This document shows, one piece after another, positions 5,538-27,653 of a stretch of 35,311 nucleotides of DNA (position 1 is its first letter; each line of letters starts with the position of its first letter). Both the position numbers and the translations under genes were made by a program. The notes below the pieces were generated by a model, which saw only the letters and a program-made list of their open reading frames with translations, was not told where the DNA came from and made no database searches. Source of the DNA: Gammaproteobacteria bacterium (GTDB taxonomy: Bacteria > Pseudomonadota > Gammaproteobacteria > Steroidobacterales > Woeseiaceae); assembly GCA_009937605.1 (NCBI GenBank), contig JAACFG010000012.1, positions 1-35,311 on the forward strand, in the 5' to 3' direction.

Positions 5538-7592
5538 ATGGACAGCAATTACATCAATCGCGAACTCAGTTTGCTTGAGTTCCACAAGCGAGTGCTTGCG
5601 CAGGCGTTCGACCCCGAGGTGCCGTTACTCGAGCGCCTGCGATTCCTCTGTATCAGTTGCACGAATCTCGACGAGTTCTTCGAAATCCGTGTCGCGGGCC
5701 TGAAGCAGCGCATGGAGATCGGCGCACCGGCCCAGGGACTTGAGAAGATCCCGGCACAGGCGGTATTCGATAAGGTCCACGTTGAAGTCGCGGACCTCAT
5801 TCGCCGTCAGTACGAACTGCTCAACAACGTCATGTTCCCCGAGCTTACGAAAGCGGGTGTCCACTTTGTCCAGAGCGAGGAGTGGAATGACGAGCAAAAG
5901 GCATGGCTAAGCGAGTATTTTGATGAGCAGGTCGTGCCGGTTCTGACGCCGCTCACGTTCGATCCTTCGCGTCCGTTCCCGCGCATCCTGAACAAGAGTC
6001 TCAACTTCATTGTGCGCCTGCACGGCCGGGATGCGTTCGGGCGTCGCCGGCACCGCGGCATGGTACAGGCACCGCGCTCTCTCCCGCGGATCATCGAATT
6101 ACCAGAACACCTGAGCGAACCGAACGGGCACAGTTACGTGTTCCTCTCGACCATTATTCGAGTGCATGTCGATCGCTTGTTTCCGGGCCTCGAGGTCGAT
6201 GGTTGCTACCAGTTCCGGGTTACTCGAAACAGTGACCTCTATATTGATGACGAAGAGGTCAGCGATCTCGTGCGCGCGCTCGAGGGCCAGCTTGAAGCCA
6301 GCCGCTATGGTGCTGCTGTGCGCATCGAGATTGGGCACGAGTGTCCGGAGGACTTGCAGGAGTTCTTGCTCGATCACTTCAGCCTGCAAGAGTGCGATAT
6401 GTACCTGGTCGAGGGGCCAGTCAATCTGAATCGTATGAGCACCGTGTGTGGAATCGGTGACCGACCCGAACTCCTGTACGAGCCCTTCACGCAAGGCTTA
6501 CCCGATGAGTTGCTGACGGACGAGGACATATTCGAAGTCTTGTCCAAGAAGAACGTGCTGCTGCATCACCCCTACCAGTCTTTCGCACCGGTTATCGAGT
6601 TCATAGCACTGGCCGCCGTCGATCCTGACGTGTTGGCCATCAAGCAGACGCTATATCGCACGGGCGCCGACTCGCCTATCGTCGATCATCTTGTGACTGC
6701 GGCGCGTTCCGGTAAGGAAGTAACCGTTGTCATCGAGCTCATGGCACGCTTCGATGAGGCCGAAAACATCGCGCTGGCGAATCGTCTCCAGGAAGCTGGG
6801 GCGCATGTCGTCTACGGCCTGGTCGGCTTCAAGACGCACGCGAAAATGGTGCTCGTCGTGCGCCGCGAGGACGACAAGCTCGTACGCTACGTCCACCTGG
6901 GCACCGGCAACTACCACCACGCGACAACCTCGGTTTACACCGACTATGGCTATCTATCGAGCAGCTCAAGGCTTGGCGAGGATGTTCATAAGCTGTTCCT
7001 GCAACTGACCAGCCTGACCGAAGCCGTCGGCATGACTCGCATGTTGGCATCACCGTTCAGCCTGTTCGACGCGCTTATCGACAAGATCAGGCGGGAAACG
7101 GAGAACGCGGAAGCCGGCAAGGATGCGCGCGTCATCGCGAAGGTCAATTCCCTGAACGAGCCTCAATTAATCGATGCTCTGTACGAAGCATCGCAAGCTG
7201 GCGTGAAAGTCGACCTGATCGTACGGGGGATCTGTACGTTGCGCCCAGGCGTAAAGGGCTTGTCGGAGAATATTCACGTTCGCTCGATTGTCGGTCGATT
7301 CCTCGAACACTCGCGCGTCTACTATTTCCTGAATGACGGCGACGAAGAGTTCTACTGTTCGAGCGCAGACTGGATGGAGCGCAATATGTTCCGCCGTAAT
7401 GAATCGTGCTTCGAAATTCGCCAGAAAGCGATGAAGGAGCAGATCCGGCAGCACCTGGAGCTGTTCCTTGCCGATAATTGCCAGGCCTGGGTCCTGGCTG
7501 GCGACGGGAGTTATGAACGGCTAACAGCGCGCAAAGAAGAACGCGTCTCCGCCCAGGAGACATTCCTTGAGCATCTTGCTGCTCAATCCTGA
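5538..7592 (+). CDS. ppk1: polyphosphate kinase 1
   Basis: PPK1 reversibly transfers the gamma-phosphate of ATP onto inorganic polyphosphate at the inner membrane or in the cytoplasm. The 684-residue product has the usual order: helical N domain (YINRELSLLEFHKRVLAQA), head domain, then two phospholipase-D-like C domains. The autophosphorylated histidine sits in FKTHAK (H434) and the second catalytic histidine in LEHSR (H591), numbering nearly identical to E. coli H435/H592. The YVHLGTGNYH motif is intact. The ATG lies 2 bases after the anmK stop. The partner exopolyphosphatase gene ppx is not adjacent but lies 6 kb away at 13579, beyond an accessory block. The gene is convergent with tetR, with only 13 bases between the stops and no hairpin terminator visible. 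Confidence 0.97.
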   Translation: MDSNYINRELSLLEFHKRVLAQAFDPEVPLLERLRFLCISCTNLDEFFEIRVAGLKQRMEIGAPAQGLEKIPAQAVFDKVHVEVADLIRRQYELLNNVMFPELTKAGVHFVQSEEWNDEQKAWLSEYFDEQVVPVLTPLTFDPSRPFPRILNKSLNFIVRLHGRDAFGRRRHRGMVQAPRSLPRIIELPEHLSEPNGHSYVFLSTIIRVHVDRLFPGLEVDGCYQFRVTRNSDLYIDDEEVSDLVRALEGQLEASRYGAAVRIEIGHECPEDLQEFLLDHFSLQECDMYLVEGPVNLNRMSTVCGIGDRPELLYEPFTQGLPDELLTDEDIFEVLSKKNVLLHHPYQSFAPVIEFIALAAVDPDVLAIKQTLYRTGADSPIVDHLVTAARSGKEVTVVIELMARFDEAENIALANRLQEAGAHVVYGLVGFKTHAKMVLVVRREDDKLVRYVHLGTGNYHHATTSVYTDYGYLSSSSRLGEDVHKLFLQLTSLTEAVGMTRMLASPFSLFDALIDKIRRETENAEAGKDARVIAKVNSLNEPQLIDALYEASQAGVKVDLIVRGICTLRPGVKGLSENIHVRSIVGRFLEHSRVYYFLNDGDEEFYCSSADWMERNMFRRNESCFEIRQKAMKEQIRQHLELFLADNCQAWVLAGDGSYERLTARKEERVSAQETFLEHLAAQS

Positions 7593-23110: not shown

Positions 23111-24637
23111 GTGTCCAGAGTCGCTGTCGCAACCACGTCGCAGCTTGCGGCCGATGCGGCCCGTGAAGTCGCTGAGATTGGTGGAAACGCCGTCGACTGC
23201 GCTCTGGCCGCCGCCCTGCTGACGATCAATACCGAACCCGGCGTTTGTGCGCTGGGCGGCAGTGCATTTATCACTATCTGGAGCGCCGGCGAAGACCCGA
23301 TAACCGTGGACGGCAATGTCGCCGTGCCGGGCAAAGGCGTGGCCGACGAAGACCGCAAACAGGGAGCGGTTGAGGTTTCACTCGACTATGGCGGCGGCAT
23401 AGAAACACTGGTCGGACCCGGATCCGTGTCTGTCCCGGGCACGCTCGCCGCGGTGGAGGACGCCTGGAGGAATTACGGTAGTGCTCCGTGGCCGGCGATC
23501 TTCGCGCCAACGATTCGTGCGTGTCGAGACGGCTTTCCATTGTCAGGGGCCTGCCGGTACTACCTTGGTTATTCGGGTGACATCATTTTTGGTCGCAGCA
23601 AGGATGGCCACACGGCGCTGCACCACGACGACGGCTCGCTGCTCGATGCGGGCGACACTGTCATCGTGCCGCACCTCGCCGACACGCTCGACGCGATCGC
23701 CAACGAAGGCGCCAGACTCTTTTACGAGGGCGAAATTGCGCGCGCGATCGCAGAGCACTGCCGGAATGGCGACGGCATGCTGACGCTCGAAGACCTGCGG
23801 AGCTACCGCGCGATCGAGCGAGCCCCGCTGATGAGCCGGATTGGCGACTGGCAGCTCGCAAGCAACCCACCGCCCGCGGTCGGCGGCGCCGTATTGACCG
23901 CAATGTTACTCGCGTGTGCCGATCTCGATATCGAACGGTGGGACGCAACCGCGCTGGCACAACTAATTGAGGCACAACGTGCTTGCCTCGATTTTCGCCA
24001 GCGGCACCTCGATCTTGCCGAGGATGTCGGTCCCGAGGCTGCGCGCCTTGTCGAGACCGCGCGCAGCGGTCGCCTGTTGTCTCGCTGGACGTCGGCCTCA
24101 ACCGTGCACACGTCGGTCGTCGATGACAGCGGCAATGGCTGTGCCATCACCGCTTCGTCGGGCTACGGCTCGGGTGAAATGCCGGATGGTACGGGCTTGT
24201 GGCTGAACAACTGCCTGGGGGAAATCGAGCTGAATCGCCGCGGCCTCGACGCGGGACCGCCGGGCGCGCGGCTTCCGTCGAACATGGCCCCCAGTGTCGC
24301 GCGGCGTGATGGTGCTGTACTTGCTGTCGGCTCTCCAGGGGCGGATCGAATTACGACAGCGATGCAACAGTTCCTGATCAACTACCTGCAGATCGGTATG
24401 CCGTTGGCCGACGCAATCGCGCATCCGCGGGTACATGTCGACACGAGCGGCGCGGATATCCAGCTCAAGGCAGAGCCTAACCTGGACCTGCCCGAGGTCG
24501 ATCTTCCGGTTACGGTCTTTCCTGAACTCGTTATGTATTTTGGTGGTGTCGGCGCCGCGGTCTTTGACAGTGACGCTGGATTCGATGTCGCGGCCGACCC
24601 CCGCCGGGAAGGCGGAGTATTCAGCCCCGACACATGA
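23111..24637 (+). CDS. gamma-glutamyltransferase-family protein without signal peptide
   Basis: This Ntn-hydrolase-family enzyme would cleave the gamma-glutamyl bond of glutathione or its conjugates. The 508-residue product starts at GTG 23111 and matches the family along its length: GGNAVDCALAAALLTINTEPGVCALGG (N-terminal), VGPGSVSVPGTLAAVEDAW, the cleavage site STVHTSVVDDSGN with nucleophile Thr331, and LPSNMAPSVARRDGAVLAVGSPGADRI near the C terminus. Typical GGTs are periplasmic with a signal peptide; here none is visible, so it is predicted cytosolic. It lies 3 bases after frmA and overlaps the next gene by 4 bases (ATGA), suggesting a joint role in handling glutathione adducts (inferred). 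Confidence 0.9.
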   Translation: MSRVAVATTSQLAADAAREVAEIGGNAVDCALAAALLTINTEPGVCALGGSAFITIWSAGEDPITVDGNVAVPGKGVADEDRKQGAVEVSLDYGGGIETLVGPGSVSVPGTLAAVEDAWRNYGSAPWPAIFAPTIRACRDGFPLSGACRYYLGYSGDIIFGRSKDGHTALHHDDGSLLDAGDTVIVPHLADTLDAIANEGARLFYEGEIARAIAEHCRNGDGMLTLEDLRSYRAIERAPLMSRIGDWQLASNPPPAVGGAVLTAMLLACADLDIERWDATALAQLIEAQRACLDFRQRHLDLAEDVGPEAARLVETARSGRLLSRWTSASTVHTSVVDDSGNGCAITASSGYGSGEMPDGTGLWLNNCLGEIELNRRGLDAGPPGARLPSNMAPSVARRDGAVLAVGSPGADRITTAMQQFLINYLQIGMPLADAIAHPRVHVDTSGADIQLKAEPNLDLPEVDLPVTVFPELVMYFGGVGAAVFDSDAGFDVAADPRREGGVFSPDT

Positions 24638-26367
24638 TGCGCCTACTACTCGCCACTATTGCTACCGCTCTGTTCCTGGGCACATCCGCCGCGAGCCAGG
24701 CGGACGAAACCATCACGCGCGGTACCAAACTGGCAGTCGATGCGTCGGCGGACGGCCGCCTGGCAATGGATCTTGCGGGCGGTATTTGGATAGTCCCGCC
24801 CGACGGCGGCGAGGCAACCCTGGTCACTTCGGATCTCGCTTCAGCCTATCGACCGCGGTGGTCGCCGGATGGCTCTCGAATCGCCTATACCGCCGCGGGG
24901 GAAAATAGCGGCATTTGGCTCTACGATTTCGCGAGCGACACGACGCACCGATTGAGCGAGGGTTCGTACTTTGATTTGCATCCGGCATGGCACCCTTCAG
25001 GCGATCGTATTACCTACGTATCCGACCGAAAGGGCTCCGGCTACGATCTCTGGGAAGTGGATGTGCCAACCGGGCTGCGCTGGCGCCTCAGCGATCAGGC
25101 GGGCGACGAAACGGAGCCCTCGTGGTCTGCGGACGGACGGGACCTGGTTTATGTACACCATCAAGGCGACCAGTGGTCGATCGTTATTCGACGCCAGGGA
25201 CGACCAGAGGAAGTGCTGGTCACTGGCACTGATCGGCTGGCCGGCCCATCATGGCGACCCGACGGCAGCCTGATTACTTTTTGGCGCGAAAGCGACACGG
25301 GTACATCGCTGGACATGGTGATCTTGTCGCAGCCCAGGCTGCTGCGACGTTACGCCGACGGTGAAGACTATGTCACCGCTCCCGTCAGCTGGCTCGACAG
25401 GCACCGGATGTACTACTCGGCGGGCGGGCTTATTCGGCAACGGCTGTTTAATTCCTGGTCGTCTACAACCGTGCCGTTTAACGCGACGATTATCGCCAGG
25501 CCGGACATCGAGATTGAACCCGTGCGCCGCAACCTGCCCCGCGTTGGTGAACCCGAGGGATCCATTGTGATTCACGCCGCGCGGCTGTACGACGGGCTGG
25601 GCAGCGACTATCGCGAGAATGTCGATATTGTCATCGATGGCGGCCGCATCCGCACGGTCGCCGCACATGCGGATCACGCCGGGGCCATTGTTTTCGATAT
25701 GGGTGACCTGGCCGTTCTGCCCGGGCTCGTCGATGTACAGGCGCGCCTGCCAGACGAAACCAACGAAACCACAGGCCCGGTGCTGCTCGCGGCCGGCATA
25801 ACAACCATCGTAAGTGACCACCCGGATGCCGAGCATTTAAACACCGTCTGGTCCGGCAAGGACATGCCGGGGCCGCGCCTGCTGCCTGCGGCTGATTGGC
25901 CCATCGGCAGCTTCTCCGGCCTGGCCGACAGCAATACACCGGGCCTCGATTCACTTCTGAACACACGCCAGGCGCGATTGATCGGCTTTGACGGCGTGGT
26001 CGTGCGACGCTTTAGCGAGCCACCTTCGATCGACCACGGCGCGACCACCATGGTGCTGGGCAGCCAGCCAAATGGCCTGCCCGCCGGAATCGCGCTCCAC
26101 GCCGAACTGCGGGCCCTGGTTGCCGCAGGATTACGGCCAGAGCAGGCCCTGGGCGCGGCCGGCGTCAATGCAGCGGCGGCGCTTGGCGTGGACCCAACCC
26201 TGGGACGCGTAGCCACGGGTGCAGTCGGTGACCTGGTTCTCGTCGACGGCGACCCCTTGCAGCAGGTCAATGACGCGATAAAAGTCGTTGCCGTCGTACG
26301 CAATGGCCGCTTCTACTCCGTGGCAGGACTGATTGACCGGGTCAACGCGGCCCAAACTGTCGAATAA
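24634..26367 (+). CDS. TolB-propeller/amidohydrolase-like protein lacking metal ligands
   Basis: The 577-residue exported protein has a signal peptide (LLLATIATALFLGTSAASQA). A TolB-type WD40-like propeller follows (about 30-290, with repeated PRWSPDGSRIAYTA, PAWHPSGDRITYVSD, PSWSADGRDLVYVH and PSWRPDGSLITFW). An amidohydrolase-like region begins about 308 (IVIHAARLYDGLGSDYRENVD). The family's first metal motif, normally LPGxxDxHxH, reads LPGLVDVQARL: Q369-x-R371 replaces H-x-H. The barrel between that and the C-terminal GAVGDLVLVDGDPLQQ is only about 160 residues, far shorter than usual. It is probably a pseudoenzyme or binding protein. It overlaps the preceding GGT gene by 4 bases. Confidence 0.85.
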   Translation: MMRLLLATIATALFLGTSAASQADETITRGTKLAVDASADGRLAMDLAGGIWIVPPDGGEATLVTSDLASAYRPRWSPDGSRIAYTAAGENSGIWLYDFASDTTHRLSEGSYFDLHPAWHPSGDRITYVSDRKGSGYDLWEVDVPTGLRWRLSDQAGDETEPSWSADGRDLVYVHHQGDQWSIVIRRQGRPEEVLVTGTDRLAGPSWRPDGSLITFWRESDTGTSLDMVILSQPRLLRRYADGEDYVTAPVSWLDRHRMYYSAGGLIRQRLFNSWSSTTVPFNATIIARPDIEIEPVRRNLPRVGEPEGSIVIHAARLYDGLGSDYRENVDIVIDGGRIRTVAAHADHAGAIVFDMGDLAVLPGLVDVQARLPDETNETTGPVLLAAGITTIVSDHPDAEHLNTVWSGKDMPGPRLLPAADWPIGSFSGLADSNTPGLDSLLNTRQARLIGFDGVVVRRFSEPPSIDHGATTMVLGSQPNGLPAGIALHAELRALVAAGLRPEQALGAAGVNAAAALGVDPTLGRVATGAVGDLVLVDGDPLQQVNDAIKVVAVVRNGRFYSVAGLIDRVNAAQTVE

Positions 26368-26402
26368 TTTGACAAAATACGGCACGCGGCGGCATCGCGT
26401 TC

Positions 26403-26430
26403 CTTAACAGCTGAATAATCAGGTGTTTAG
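26403..26430. promoter_or_regulatory. dyad upstream of the sigma-54 promoter (possible enhancer site)
   Basis: CTTAACA and TGTTTAG form arms with 6 of 7 bases complementary around a 14-base spacer. The dyad centre is about 160 bases upstream of the sigma-54 -12 element, a usual distance for an enhancer-binding-protein site. The rest of 26368-26564 has no supported gene. It shows a short hairpin GGCGG/CCGCC (26500-26512) without a T-run. Confidence 0.35.
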
Positions 26431-26564
26431 CGTGTGCTTTTCCCCGAATAGATGAACAAGCGCGGTTCGAATCGTCGGTTTTGTTTACAATAATGACTTG
26501 GCGGACCCCGCCTGGAGCATTGAGCAATCGCTAAATCATTGAATTTCTGTCTGCTGCGGGACAG

Positions 26565-26580
26565 TTGGCACAGCTCTTGC
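26565..26580 (+). promoter_or_regulatory. sigma-54 promoter
   Basis: TTGGCACAGCTCTTGC matches the RpoN consensus (TGGCAC-N5-TTGC) with GG and GC exactly 10 bases apart, followed by TTTT. The predicted transcription start is about 26591. No real gene begins close behind it; the next start codon of a confident gene is at 26829, beyond a terminator. Confidence 0.85.
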
Positions 26581-26590
26581 TTTTAATACT

Positions 26591-26795
26591 CTGCCCAAGC
26601 GAAGTGCAATTGCGCGTGGGAACGTGTATCGGCCAGAAAAAGGATTTAGACGCCAGAAGAACAATAACTATAAAAATAAGATCAGAATCCAACAATTATA
26701 AGAAAGTATCTGTCTCCGGTTACCCAATTCGCAGTTGCCTCTTTTGAAAAAAAGAGAATCTAGCCCCGCCGCTAACGCCGCGGGGCTTTTTCTTT
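26591..26795 (+). ncRNA. candidate sigma-54-dependent small RNA, CrcZ-like
   Basis: This stretch of about 205 nt runs from the sigma-54 start to an intrinsic terminator. Visible parts in order: a 5' hairpin (CCCAAGCG/CGCGTGGG, 26594-26620); an unpaired-looking A-rich segment (about 26635-26710); a hairpin CTCTTTT/AAAAGAG (26739-26756); and the terminator. The A-rich segment contains AAGAACAATAA (26657-26667) and AAAAATAA (26672-26679), which fit the AAnAAnAA motif that Hfq and Crc bind; AACAATAA (26660-26667) also fits the stricter AAYAAYAA form. The Pseudomonas CrcZ/CrcY RNAs share these traits: RpoN promoter, A-rich motifs, terminator. A weak 47-codon frame from GTG 26604 to TGA 26747 is an alternative, with no ribosome site. 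Function and homology are inferred. Confidence 0.6.
26762..26795 (+). terminator. strong intrinsic terminator ending the candidate sRNA
   Basis: AGCCCCGC (26762-26769) pairs perfectly with GCGGGGCT (26780-26787) around a 10-base loop and is followed by TTTTTCTTT. It ends 33 bases before the methyltransferase gene, so the sigma-54 transcript should stop before that gene. Confidence 0.93.
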
Positions 26796-26828
26796 GGCTA
26801 GAATAGCCACTTACAGAGGGGGCCGATA

Positions 26829-27653
26829 ATGAGCACAACGACAAGAACAAGCATCTTCATTGCGATAAGCACCGTAATCGCCCTGGCGATGAGTGCATGT
26901 GGCAAACATGCGGACGAAGAACACGCCGCAGCGCACGTCGCAGAAGAAGCGCCTGCGGAGCCTGCAACATCCATTTACGAGGATGCGGTGGCGAATGACG
27001 CGCGACCGGAGGCAGACCGCGCGCGCGATGCCGGACGTAAACCGGCCGAGGTTCTCGAGTTCCTGGGCATCAAGCCGGGCATGACTGTCCTCGACATGTT
27101 CTCCGGTGGTGGCTACTACACGGAAATACTGGCGTACGTCGTCGGCGACGGCGGCCAGGTCATCGCTCAGTCGAATGAGGCCTACCTGCAATTCGTGGGC
27201 GATGAGTTCGAGGAACGCTACCTGGGCGGCCGGCTGAGCAATGCGCAGGTCTTGATGGCCGAGAATAACGAACTGACGCTCGCGCCAGAGTCACTCGACG
27301 CAGTCATGCTTGTACTTTCCTTCCACGACCTTTTTTATGCGGCACCCGATCAAGGCTGGCCCGCATATGACGTGCCCGCGTTTCTCGCGGAACTGCACAC
27401 GGGACTGCGGTCGGGCGGCATTGTCGGGATTATCGATCACTATGCAGCGGAAGGCGCGTCGAGCGATACGGGCGGCACCACGCACCGCATTGACCCGGCG
27501 ATCGTCGTCGCAACAATGTCCGAGGCGGGATTTGAACTCGATGGACAGAGCGACATGCTGCGCAACCCGGATGACGACTATGACAAGATCGTGTTTGATC
27601 CGGAACTGCGCGGCAAGACCGATCGCTTCGTTATGCGATTCCGCAAGCCCTAG
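26829..27653 (+). CDS. exported class I methyltransferase-like lipoprotein
   Basis: The 274-residue product opens with a lipoprotein-type signal (SIFIAISTVIALAMSAC, Cys24) and a charged Glu/Ala linker. A class I SAM-methyltransferase fold follows: GMTVLDMFSGGGYYTEILAYVVGDGGQVIAQ (motif I, about residues 88-118), LDAVMLVLSFHDLFYA (motif IV region) and LRSGGIVGIIDHYA (motif V/post). It resembles the predicted exported methyltransferases I know as COG4798. SAM is not normally found in the periplasm, so whether it methylates is open. GAGGGGGCC precedes the ATG. The amidase gene follows after 6 bases. Confidence 0.85.
   Translation: MSTTTRTSIFIAISTVIALAMSACGKHADEEHAAAHVAEEAPAEPATSIYEDAVANDARPEADRARDAGRKPAEVLEFLGIKPGMTVLDMFSGGGYYTEILAYVVGDGGQVIAQSNEAYLQFVGDEFEERYLGGRLSNAQVLMAENNELTLAPESLDAVMLVLSFHDLFYAAPDQGWPAYDVPAFLAELHTGLRSGGIVGIIDHYAAEGASSDTGGTTHRIDPAIVVATMSEAGFELDGQSDMLRNPDDDYDKIVFDPELRGKTDRFVMRFRKP

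Follow-up and report, generated by a model that had tools for sequence, protein, structure and literature searches.

The window analysed here, a stretch of 35,311 nt, is contig C131 of a Woeseiaceae genome (G000) that is 86.6% complete; the Woeseiaceae are a family of marine-sediment bacteria. Positions 26368-26828 form a gap between a gene for a protein with a PD40 propeller and an amidohydrolase domain and a downstream gene (26829-27653) whose product weakly matches the methyltransferase PCMT. This gap holds a conserved noncoding RNA gene together with a sigma-54 promoter, an upstream enhancer box and an intrinsic terminator (Table 1). The window copy matches covariance model (CM) R1 with an E value of 3.9e-42, the copy itself belonging to the training set of R1, and the probable RNA start was placed from promoter spacing and from the edge of conservation.

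Table 1. Features of the RNA locus, in positions of the window
Feature	Position	Strand	Basis
PD40 propeller and amidohydrolase protein, synteny marker	24634-26367	+	Pfam; upstream neighbour
Enhancer box CGTCGGTTTTGTTTACA (Haft "motif 1", predicted PrsR site)	26473-26489	+	GTCG and TTTACA columns 90-100% in 50 copies
Partly conserved A+T-rich stretch GCTAAATCATTGAA, between enhancer and promoter	26530-26543	+	12 of 14 columns at least 70% in 50 copies
Sigma-54 promoter TTGGCACAGCTCTTGC (-24/-12)	26565-26580	+	Direct reading; GG and GC invariant in 50 copies
Noncoding RNA gene, 201 nt	26591-26791	+	CM R1 match and alignment A1
Candidate target-pairing block TGCCCAAGCGAAG	near RNA 5' end
Closing stem 1, 5' arm (GCAATTGC)	26606-26613	+	RNAalifold, covariation test
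Stem 2, 5' arm TGGGAAC	26617-26623	+	Covariation and permutation tests
Near-invariant block GGATTTAGACGCCAGAAGAA	26642-26661	+	19 of 20 columns invariant in 50 copies; block unused as probe
ARN/AAnAAnAA tract 1, candidate Hfq distal-face site	26657-26680	+	Period-3 variation across copies; family enrichment
ARN tract 2, degenerate in own copy	26691-26705	+	AATAAYAATAA or similar in most A1 rows
Stem 2, 3' arm GTTACCC	26719-26725	+	Covariation and permutation tests
Closing stem 1, 3' arm (GCAGTTGC)	26731-26738	+	RNAalifold, covariation test
Possible small hairpin CTCTTTT-GAAA-AAAAGAG	26739-26756	+	At least 5 Watson-Crick pairs kept in 74/74 unique copies
Intrinsic terminator	26762-26791	+	Sequence, window fold, RNAalifold, covariation test

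A first-pass annotation of the window had described a consensus RpoN promoter followed by about 200 nt without a convincing gene and a strong intrinsic terminator, and all three elements were recovered. Sites of the form TGGCACN5TTGC are only mildly enriched in the genome (17, versus 7 for a reversed control pattern), and a lone box is thus weak evidence; the case for the promoter rests on conservation, since the -24 GG and -12 GC are invariant in 50 copies where most flanking columns vary. The rpoN gene is present in this genome and, counting it, in 70 of 73 genomes of the genus. The strong terminator lies about 180 nt beyond the sigma-54 consensus and is missing from the list of a simple terminator scan that permits only loops of 3-8. 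Upstream of the promoter, the A+T-rich stretch GCTAAATCATTGAA is a possible DNA-bending site.

A covariance-model and synteny comparison, which the annotation had proposed, found the RNA, its promoter and its upstream gene conserved in relatives. Using positions 26540-26800 as the blastn query, we obtained a match in 54 of 99 genomes including the window's own, two of the 54 being terminator-only matches outside the genus, and most alignments ran from the -24 box to the terminator. Fifty genus copies were aligned, five of 55 rows having been left out because they were partial or covered the terminator only. In this alignment hardly any variation is seen in the enhancer box, the promoter, a 5' block, a central block and the terminator, and the intervening and flanking DNA is mostly variable. 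The block GGATTTAGACGCCAGAAGAA is a candidate seed or protein site, judging from its conservation. CM R1 was built from 58 copies, which match it by construction, and found the RNA in 64 of the 73 genus genomes (own genome included) and in 21 genomes from other Woeseiaceae genera. The misses listed within the family include at least eight g27 genomes of 1.1-2.0 Mb and three genus members of only 1.4-1.5 Mb, a pattern that points to loss of the RNA in the course of genome reduction. An exact search for GGATTWAGACGCCAGAAGAA matched 74 stretches from named assemblies, labelled as Woeseiaceae, Woeseia or unclassified Proteobacteria or Gammaproteobacteria, with two labelled Chromatiales. One genus copy (L052; G036:C220, ~7110-7230) has lost the greater part of its core block and ARN tracts to an internal deletion, with promoter and terminator left in place, reflecting either real decay or misassembly.

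The gene is noncoding: 43 of 74 unique copies contain no ATG at all, no start is common to the copies, and the frames end at differing stops. The 47-codon GTG frame, whose clear conservation as a protein would by the annotation's account have spoken against a regulatory RNA, is unconserved across copies. At the level of structure, RNAalifold returned the closing stem 1, a GGAU/AUCC pairing and the terminator. What had been described as a local 5' hairpin is really one arm of this long-range stem, as RNAalifold and the covariation test both indicate. Stem 2 was read from the alignment and then tested; it has two-sided changes at all seven pairs among 58 sequences, with 83.1% of cells paired, and five of its seven pairs are standard in the window copy. 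In an alignment built from sequence and not from structure, 94.7% of cells pair. The covariation and permutation statistics ignore the relatedness of the copies; read in that way, two-sided cells number 62 versus 17.1 ± 3.5 in shuffles (0/500 reaching 62), cognate arms of stem 2 pair at -10.16 kcal/mol versus -8.07 ± 0.24 for permuted arms (0/10000 permutations as good), and the cognate arm is the better partner in 4370 of 5368 swaps, with a null result for a neighbouring control segment (2870/5000). The minimum-energy fold of the window copy is of modest stability (z -2.0). The possible small hairpin 3' of the closing stem is absent from that fold, where its A-rich side is base-paired to the U tail, and was not called by RNAalifold.

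Related RNAs occur in two other families, here f15 and f6. CM R1 gave weak full-length matches in three f15 genomes, and the three RNAs served as the source of a second model, R2, which matched 33 f15 genomes (one over 49 nt only). Reciprocally, R2 matched 38 Woeseiaceae genomes, in each case at the R1 locus; the window's genome was not among these at E 0.01. The best 30 f15 loci all carry the box (8-10 of 10 bases) and the promoter (10-12 of 12), spaced 89-90 nt start to start versus 91 in the window, and both elements are present at a 31st f15 locus (L326) too. In f6, seven genomes have a related RNA, and four of the seven kept loci have box and promoter 88-91 nt apart; the remaining loci (L317, L319 and L320) keep the RNA body and terminator and lack the upstream sigma-54 site and PrsR box, a possible case of promoter replacement.

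The upstream gene serves as a synteny marker. Its homologue was detected at 122 of 127 redundant Woeseiaceae loci, upstream and on the same strand at all 121 that could be placed, and at 16 of 30 f15 loci and 6 of 7 f6 loci. Control loci gave none (0/28 false CM matches, 0/32 PEP-CTERM-box loci), and among 36 other loci of the window's genome the homologue appeared only in one stretch that belongs to the window itself. Weak cross-family CM scores are insufficient alone, R3 having given matches judged false down to E 7e-6. Given that the amidohydrolase neighbour recurs at f15 and f6 loci and is absent from the controls, and with the reciprocal matches and the box plus promoter also in hand, we take the RNAs of the three families to be orthologous on this comparative evidence. 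An extension beyond the order was rejected: R3 on 369 genomes of the class gave one strong f15 match and 28 weak loci in 27 other genomes, which we regard as A-rich false positives, their best box-plus-promoter score being 14/22 versus 19-21 in the four f6 promoter loci. We also left out one f6 match (L318) as not RNA-like and judged the short R2 matches in G134, G088, G121 and G222 (49-96 nt) to be terminator-type; the one in G121 (L324), which scored 17, is a borderline case. On the downstream side, the commonest cluster in f15 is an ABC-ATPase-like protein (15 loci), and a cobalamin riboswitch lies 3' of one f15 sRNA locus (L288:2588-2837).

The enhancer box, with the form GTCG-N6-TTTACA, lies about 110 nt 5' of the RNA start and is as conserved as the promoter; it had been omitted from the first-pass description. 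In the accessible text of Haft et al. 2006 (PMC1569441), PEP-CTERM genes are preceded by a 17-nt motif 1 ending in TTTACA and then by a sigma-54 motif 2, with a spacer of 62.8 ± 10.6 nt (range 32-92), and motif 1 is predicted from a phylogenetic profile to be the site of the response regulator PrsR. The window fits this arrangement as described in that text, with the box and the promoter in the two positions and a spacer of about 74 nt. Across the genus, the combined box and sigma-54 pattern has 91 matches in 62 of 73 genomes, versus 10 for a reversed control, and by our count 55 of the 91 are at the sRNA and 36 elsewhere. At 33 of these 36 sites the downstream protein was examined; it carries PF07589 in 15/33 and TIGR02595 in 14/33, several further proteins have near-PEP tails, and the PF07589 matches imply that the box marks PEP-CTERM genes in the genus. 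In the window's genome the sole strict match is that of the sRNA, and the reversed control likewise gives one there.

PrsR itself is encoded in this genome (707.8 bits, cut-off 502.6). Across the 73 genus genomes, 54 have both sRNA and PrsR, 10 the sRNA only, 2 PrsR only and 7 neither (Fisher p 3e-4, uncorrected for phylogeny, genome size and completeness). Exceptions on both sides include nearly or fully complete genomes: G021 (100% complete) has the sRNA and no PrsR above the cut-off, and in G005 (98% complete) PrsR and a gene with a PEP-CTERM box are present and the sRNA gave no match. As far as the accessible portions of these reports go, a DNA-affinity assay with the PEP-CTERM regulator of D. 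vulgaris showed enrichment of the five PEP-CTERM targets predicted for it (PMC3333781), and RpoN is required for a PEP-CTERM gene in Aquincola (PMC9850573). We consider it very probable that the sRNA is under RpoN/PrsR control.

Several other sites in the genus bear on the extent of this regulon. A PrsR-type box precedes GlxA-like proteins far under the equivalog cut-off at L203 and L210, and SbnA-family PLP enzymes above the cut-off at L197 and L216, so the PrsR regulon may reach past PEP-CTERM proteins. At L205 and L214 the box is followed by large surface-type proteins with choice-of-anchor Z repeats, the PEP-CTERM tail being absent within the examined stretch. A different enhancer motif, two TGTCCG-N4-CGTACA boxes, lies upstream of a sigma-54 site in the window's genome (L154; G000:C96:15002); the same contig encodes an uncharacterised NtrC-type response regulator (L138), and this site is possibly autoregulatory. 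At L226 (1832-5314), some 0.7 kb that includes a short ORF separates prsR from a GlrR/QseF-like activator gene facing it, and the same pairing is seen in many genus genomes. The leaders of box-controlled genes contain AAnAAnAA in 6/33 cases versus 36/1600 random windows, a comparison uncorrected for base composition that we did not use as evidence.

The A-rich AAnAAnAA motifs pointed out in the annotation hold up for the family and not for the single copy. They occur in all 74 Woeseiaceae copies (median 7, minimum 3; shuffle mean 0.8) and in all 30 f15 copies (median 9; shuffle mean 0.9), and the three in the window copy do not reach significance by themselves (at least three arise in 360 of 5000 dinucleotide shuffles), nor does its longest ARN run (1860/5000 shuffles). 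The tracts differ among copies in repeat number and vary with a period of three, as the Hfq distal face would allow; this face takes A-R-N repeats, according to the accessible text of PMC8121710. A search for hfq, which had been suggested together with one for crc, found the gene in the window's genome and in 65 of 73 genus genomes in all. Hfq is a likely partner of the sRNA.

Taken together, the reading we favour, and hold to be reasonably probable, is that the product of 26591-26791 is a stand-alone sRNA that belongs to the PrsR/RpoN (PEP-CTERM, exosortase) regulon, is bound by Hfq and either titrates it or guides it to targets. When the surface-protein programme is switched on, phosphorylated PrsR would bind the box and activate sigma-54 polymerase at the promoter; the resulting RNA would end at the terminator, and its long-range closing stem would present the single-stranded block and the ARN repeats. 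The distal face of Hfq would then engage the ARN tracts and the proximal face the 3' U tail, and induction of the surface programme would thereby occupy Hfq or bring it to targets, shifting the translation of Hfq-controlled mRNAs. This would amount to CrcZ-like logic without CbrAB or Crc.

As to whether the RNA acts by titration rather than by base pairing, we find the balance even. In the logic of Azotobacter CrcZ, as given in the accessible text of PMC5429807, one RNA occupies several Hfq hexamers, and with two or three ARN tracts in about 200 nt such occupation is no less likely than the action of one anchored sRNA that works by base pairing. The invariant blocks point to a specific partner of some kind and leave base pairing a live alternative. 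A more specific version, in which an Hfq sponge evolved outside CbrAB/Crc and was wired into the exosortase programme so that PrsR would induce surface proteins and, through ARN repeats, Hfq titration, is tentative and falls somewhat short of being probable. Were it true, it would describe an old RNA gene that three families of a single gammaproteobacterial order carry next to the same amidohydrolase gene.

The best-surviving alternative is a classical base-pairing Hfq class II sRNA, whose ARN tract is a distal-face anchor and in which GGATTTAGACGCCAGAAGAA and/or TGCCCAAGCGAAG pairs with a conserved mRNA. Conservation of these blocks far beyond structural need argues for it, as does the precedent of MgrR, a class II sRNA with two Hfq sites (PMC6239178, accessible text); several ARN tracts per RNA exceed what an anchor needs, however, and the block is only partly kept in f15, and we regard this alternative as a serious but doubtful one.

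The assignment to PrsR also has a competitor. In enteric bacteria, GlrR/QseF is the sigma-54 activator of GlmY/GlmZ, and the GlrR consensus is TGTC-N10-GACA. The activator here could be a GlrR/QseF-like protein encoded near prsR: such a gene is found close to prsR (626.5 bits to GlrR, under the cut-off of 763), some f15 boxes read TGTC-N9-GACA, near that consensus, and the ten sRNA-bearing genus genomes without PrsR above the cut-off would be accounted for. Against this, the box is that of PEP-CTERM genes, which the accessible text of PMC1569441 links to PrsR by phylogenetic profile, and the D. vulgaris DNA-affinity assay, as given in the accessible part of PMC3333781, joins a PEP-CTERM regulator to its predicted targets. 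We therefore think a GlrR-like activator unlikely and retain PrsR as the predicted one.

RpoN control combined with A-rich Hfq/Crc motifs had been taken as the hallmark of Pseudomonas CrcZ/CrcY, and a homologous or convergent system had been proposed. Rfam includes a CrcZ family, and CrcZ is about 400 nt long, roughly twice the length of this sRNA. No Rfam family reached its gathering score on the window RNA or on seven related loci, and in the scan of the RNA the CrcZ family was not among the matches at gathering scores or at E up to 10. Two ExoIII-size Exo_endo_phos proteins of the window's genome were compared with solved structures; the one nearer Crc has as its best match the exodeoxyribonuclease 2jc5, a Neisseria AP endonuclease, with Crc second, and it has QET, GDWN and SDH, at catalytic positions, where Crc has QDT, GSLY and SQH. 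The search for crc thus found no true Crc in this genome, 86.6% complete, the nearest protein keeping residues that Crc has replaced, and no cbrB-like gene is adjacent, as had been stated. A true CrcZ/CrcY homologue under CbrAB and Crc would share with this RNA a sigma-54 promoter, a stand-alone transcript and AAnAAnAA motifs, as in Azotobacter CrcZ (PMC5429807, accessible text), but we rejected CrcZ membership on the Rfam negatives, the PrsR-type enhancer box and the residues of the Crc-like protein, and such homology is extremely improbable. Of the proposed hallmark, the sigma-54-type promoter, the stand-alone RNA, the family-wide motifs and the Hfq gene stand, and the link to CbrAB-Crc is unsupported; convergence of logic may be what remains of the proposed kinship.

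Equally hard to credit is a leader or tiny-protein gene, which the AAN repeat, readable as Asn/Lys codons (GFRRQKNNNYKN...), might recall: the repeats look codon-like, but many copies lack ATG, no start is common to them and in-frame stops differ, the paired arms covary, and a terminator precedes the next gene, whose homologue is found at only 70 of 127 loci.

Returning to an sRNA of the PrsR/RpoN regulon, we found no description of this RNA in the literature on PEP-CTERM/exosortase systems, PrsK/PrsR and Woeseia small RNAs, nor of any regulatory RNA for PEP-CTERM/exosortase systems, in a survey of titles and abstract openings that covered few subscription journals. The predicted role of these systems is the sorting of proteins to the exopolysaccharide layer (PMC1569441), and floc formation involves a PEP-CTERM gene (PMC9850573), both as stated in the accessible text. 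A conserved sRNA under the PEP-CTERM box would add a post-transcriptional layer to exosortase systems and would give PrsR a well-conserved target in the Woeseiaceae. The logic of CrcZ, in which a two-component system, RpoN and an A-rich Hfq decoy are joined, may have arisen here with another input and without Crc.

Compared with known systems, the RNA resembles CrcZ, CrcY and CrcX of Pseudomonas and Azotobacter in being a stand-alone sRNA with several AAnAAnAA motifs that is, here by prediction, RpoN-dependent and controlled by a two-component system; it differs in its PrsR-type box, in a length of about 200 nt, in having no Rfam match, in the lineages that carry it and in that Crc was not found. 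GlmY/GlmZ and the Qrr sRNAs are likewise sigma-54-dependent and about 100-200 nt long, whereas the RNA described here has no Rfam match and a different enhancer box. With the Hfq class II sRNAs, such as MgrR and ChiX, it shares an ARN tract and a 3' terminator U tail, here seen family-wide, and it departs from them in its several ARN tracts, its sigma-54 control and the lack of a known target. Lastly, with the PEP-CTERM/PrsK-PrsR regulon, as set out in the accessible text of Haft et al. 2006, the locus has in common motif 1, the spacer and the sigma-54 motif 2, together with a prsR gene in the same genome; the difference is that the controlled unit there is a PEP-CTERM protein gene and here is a noncoding RNA.
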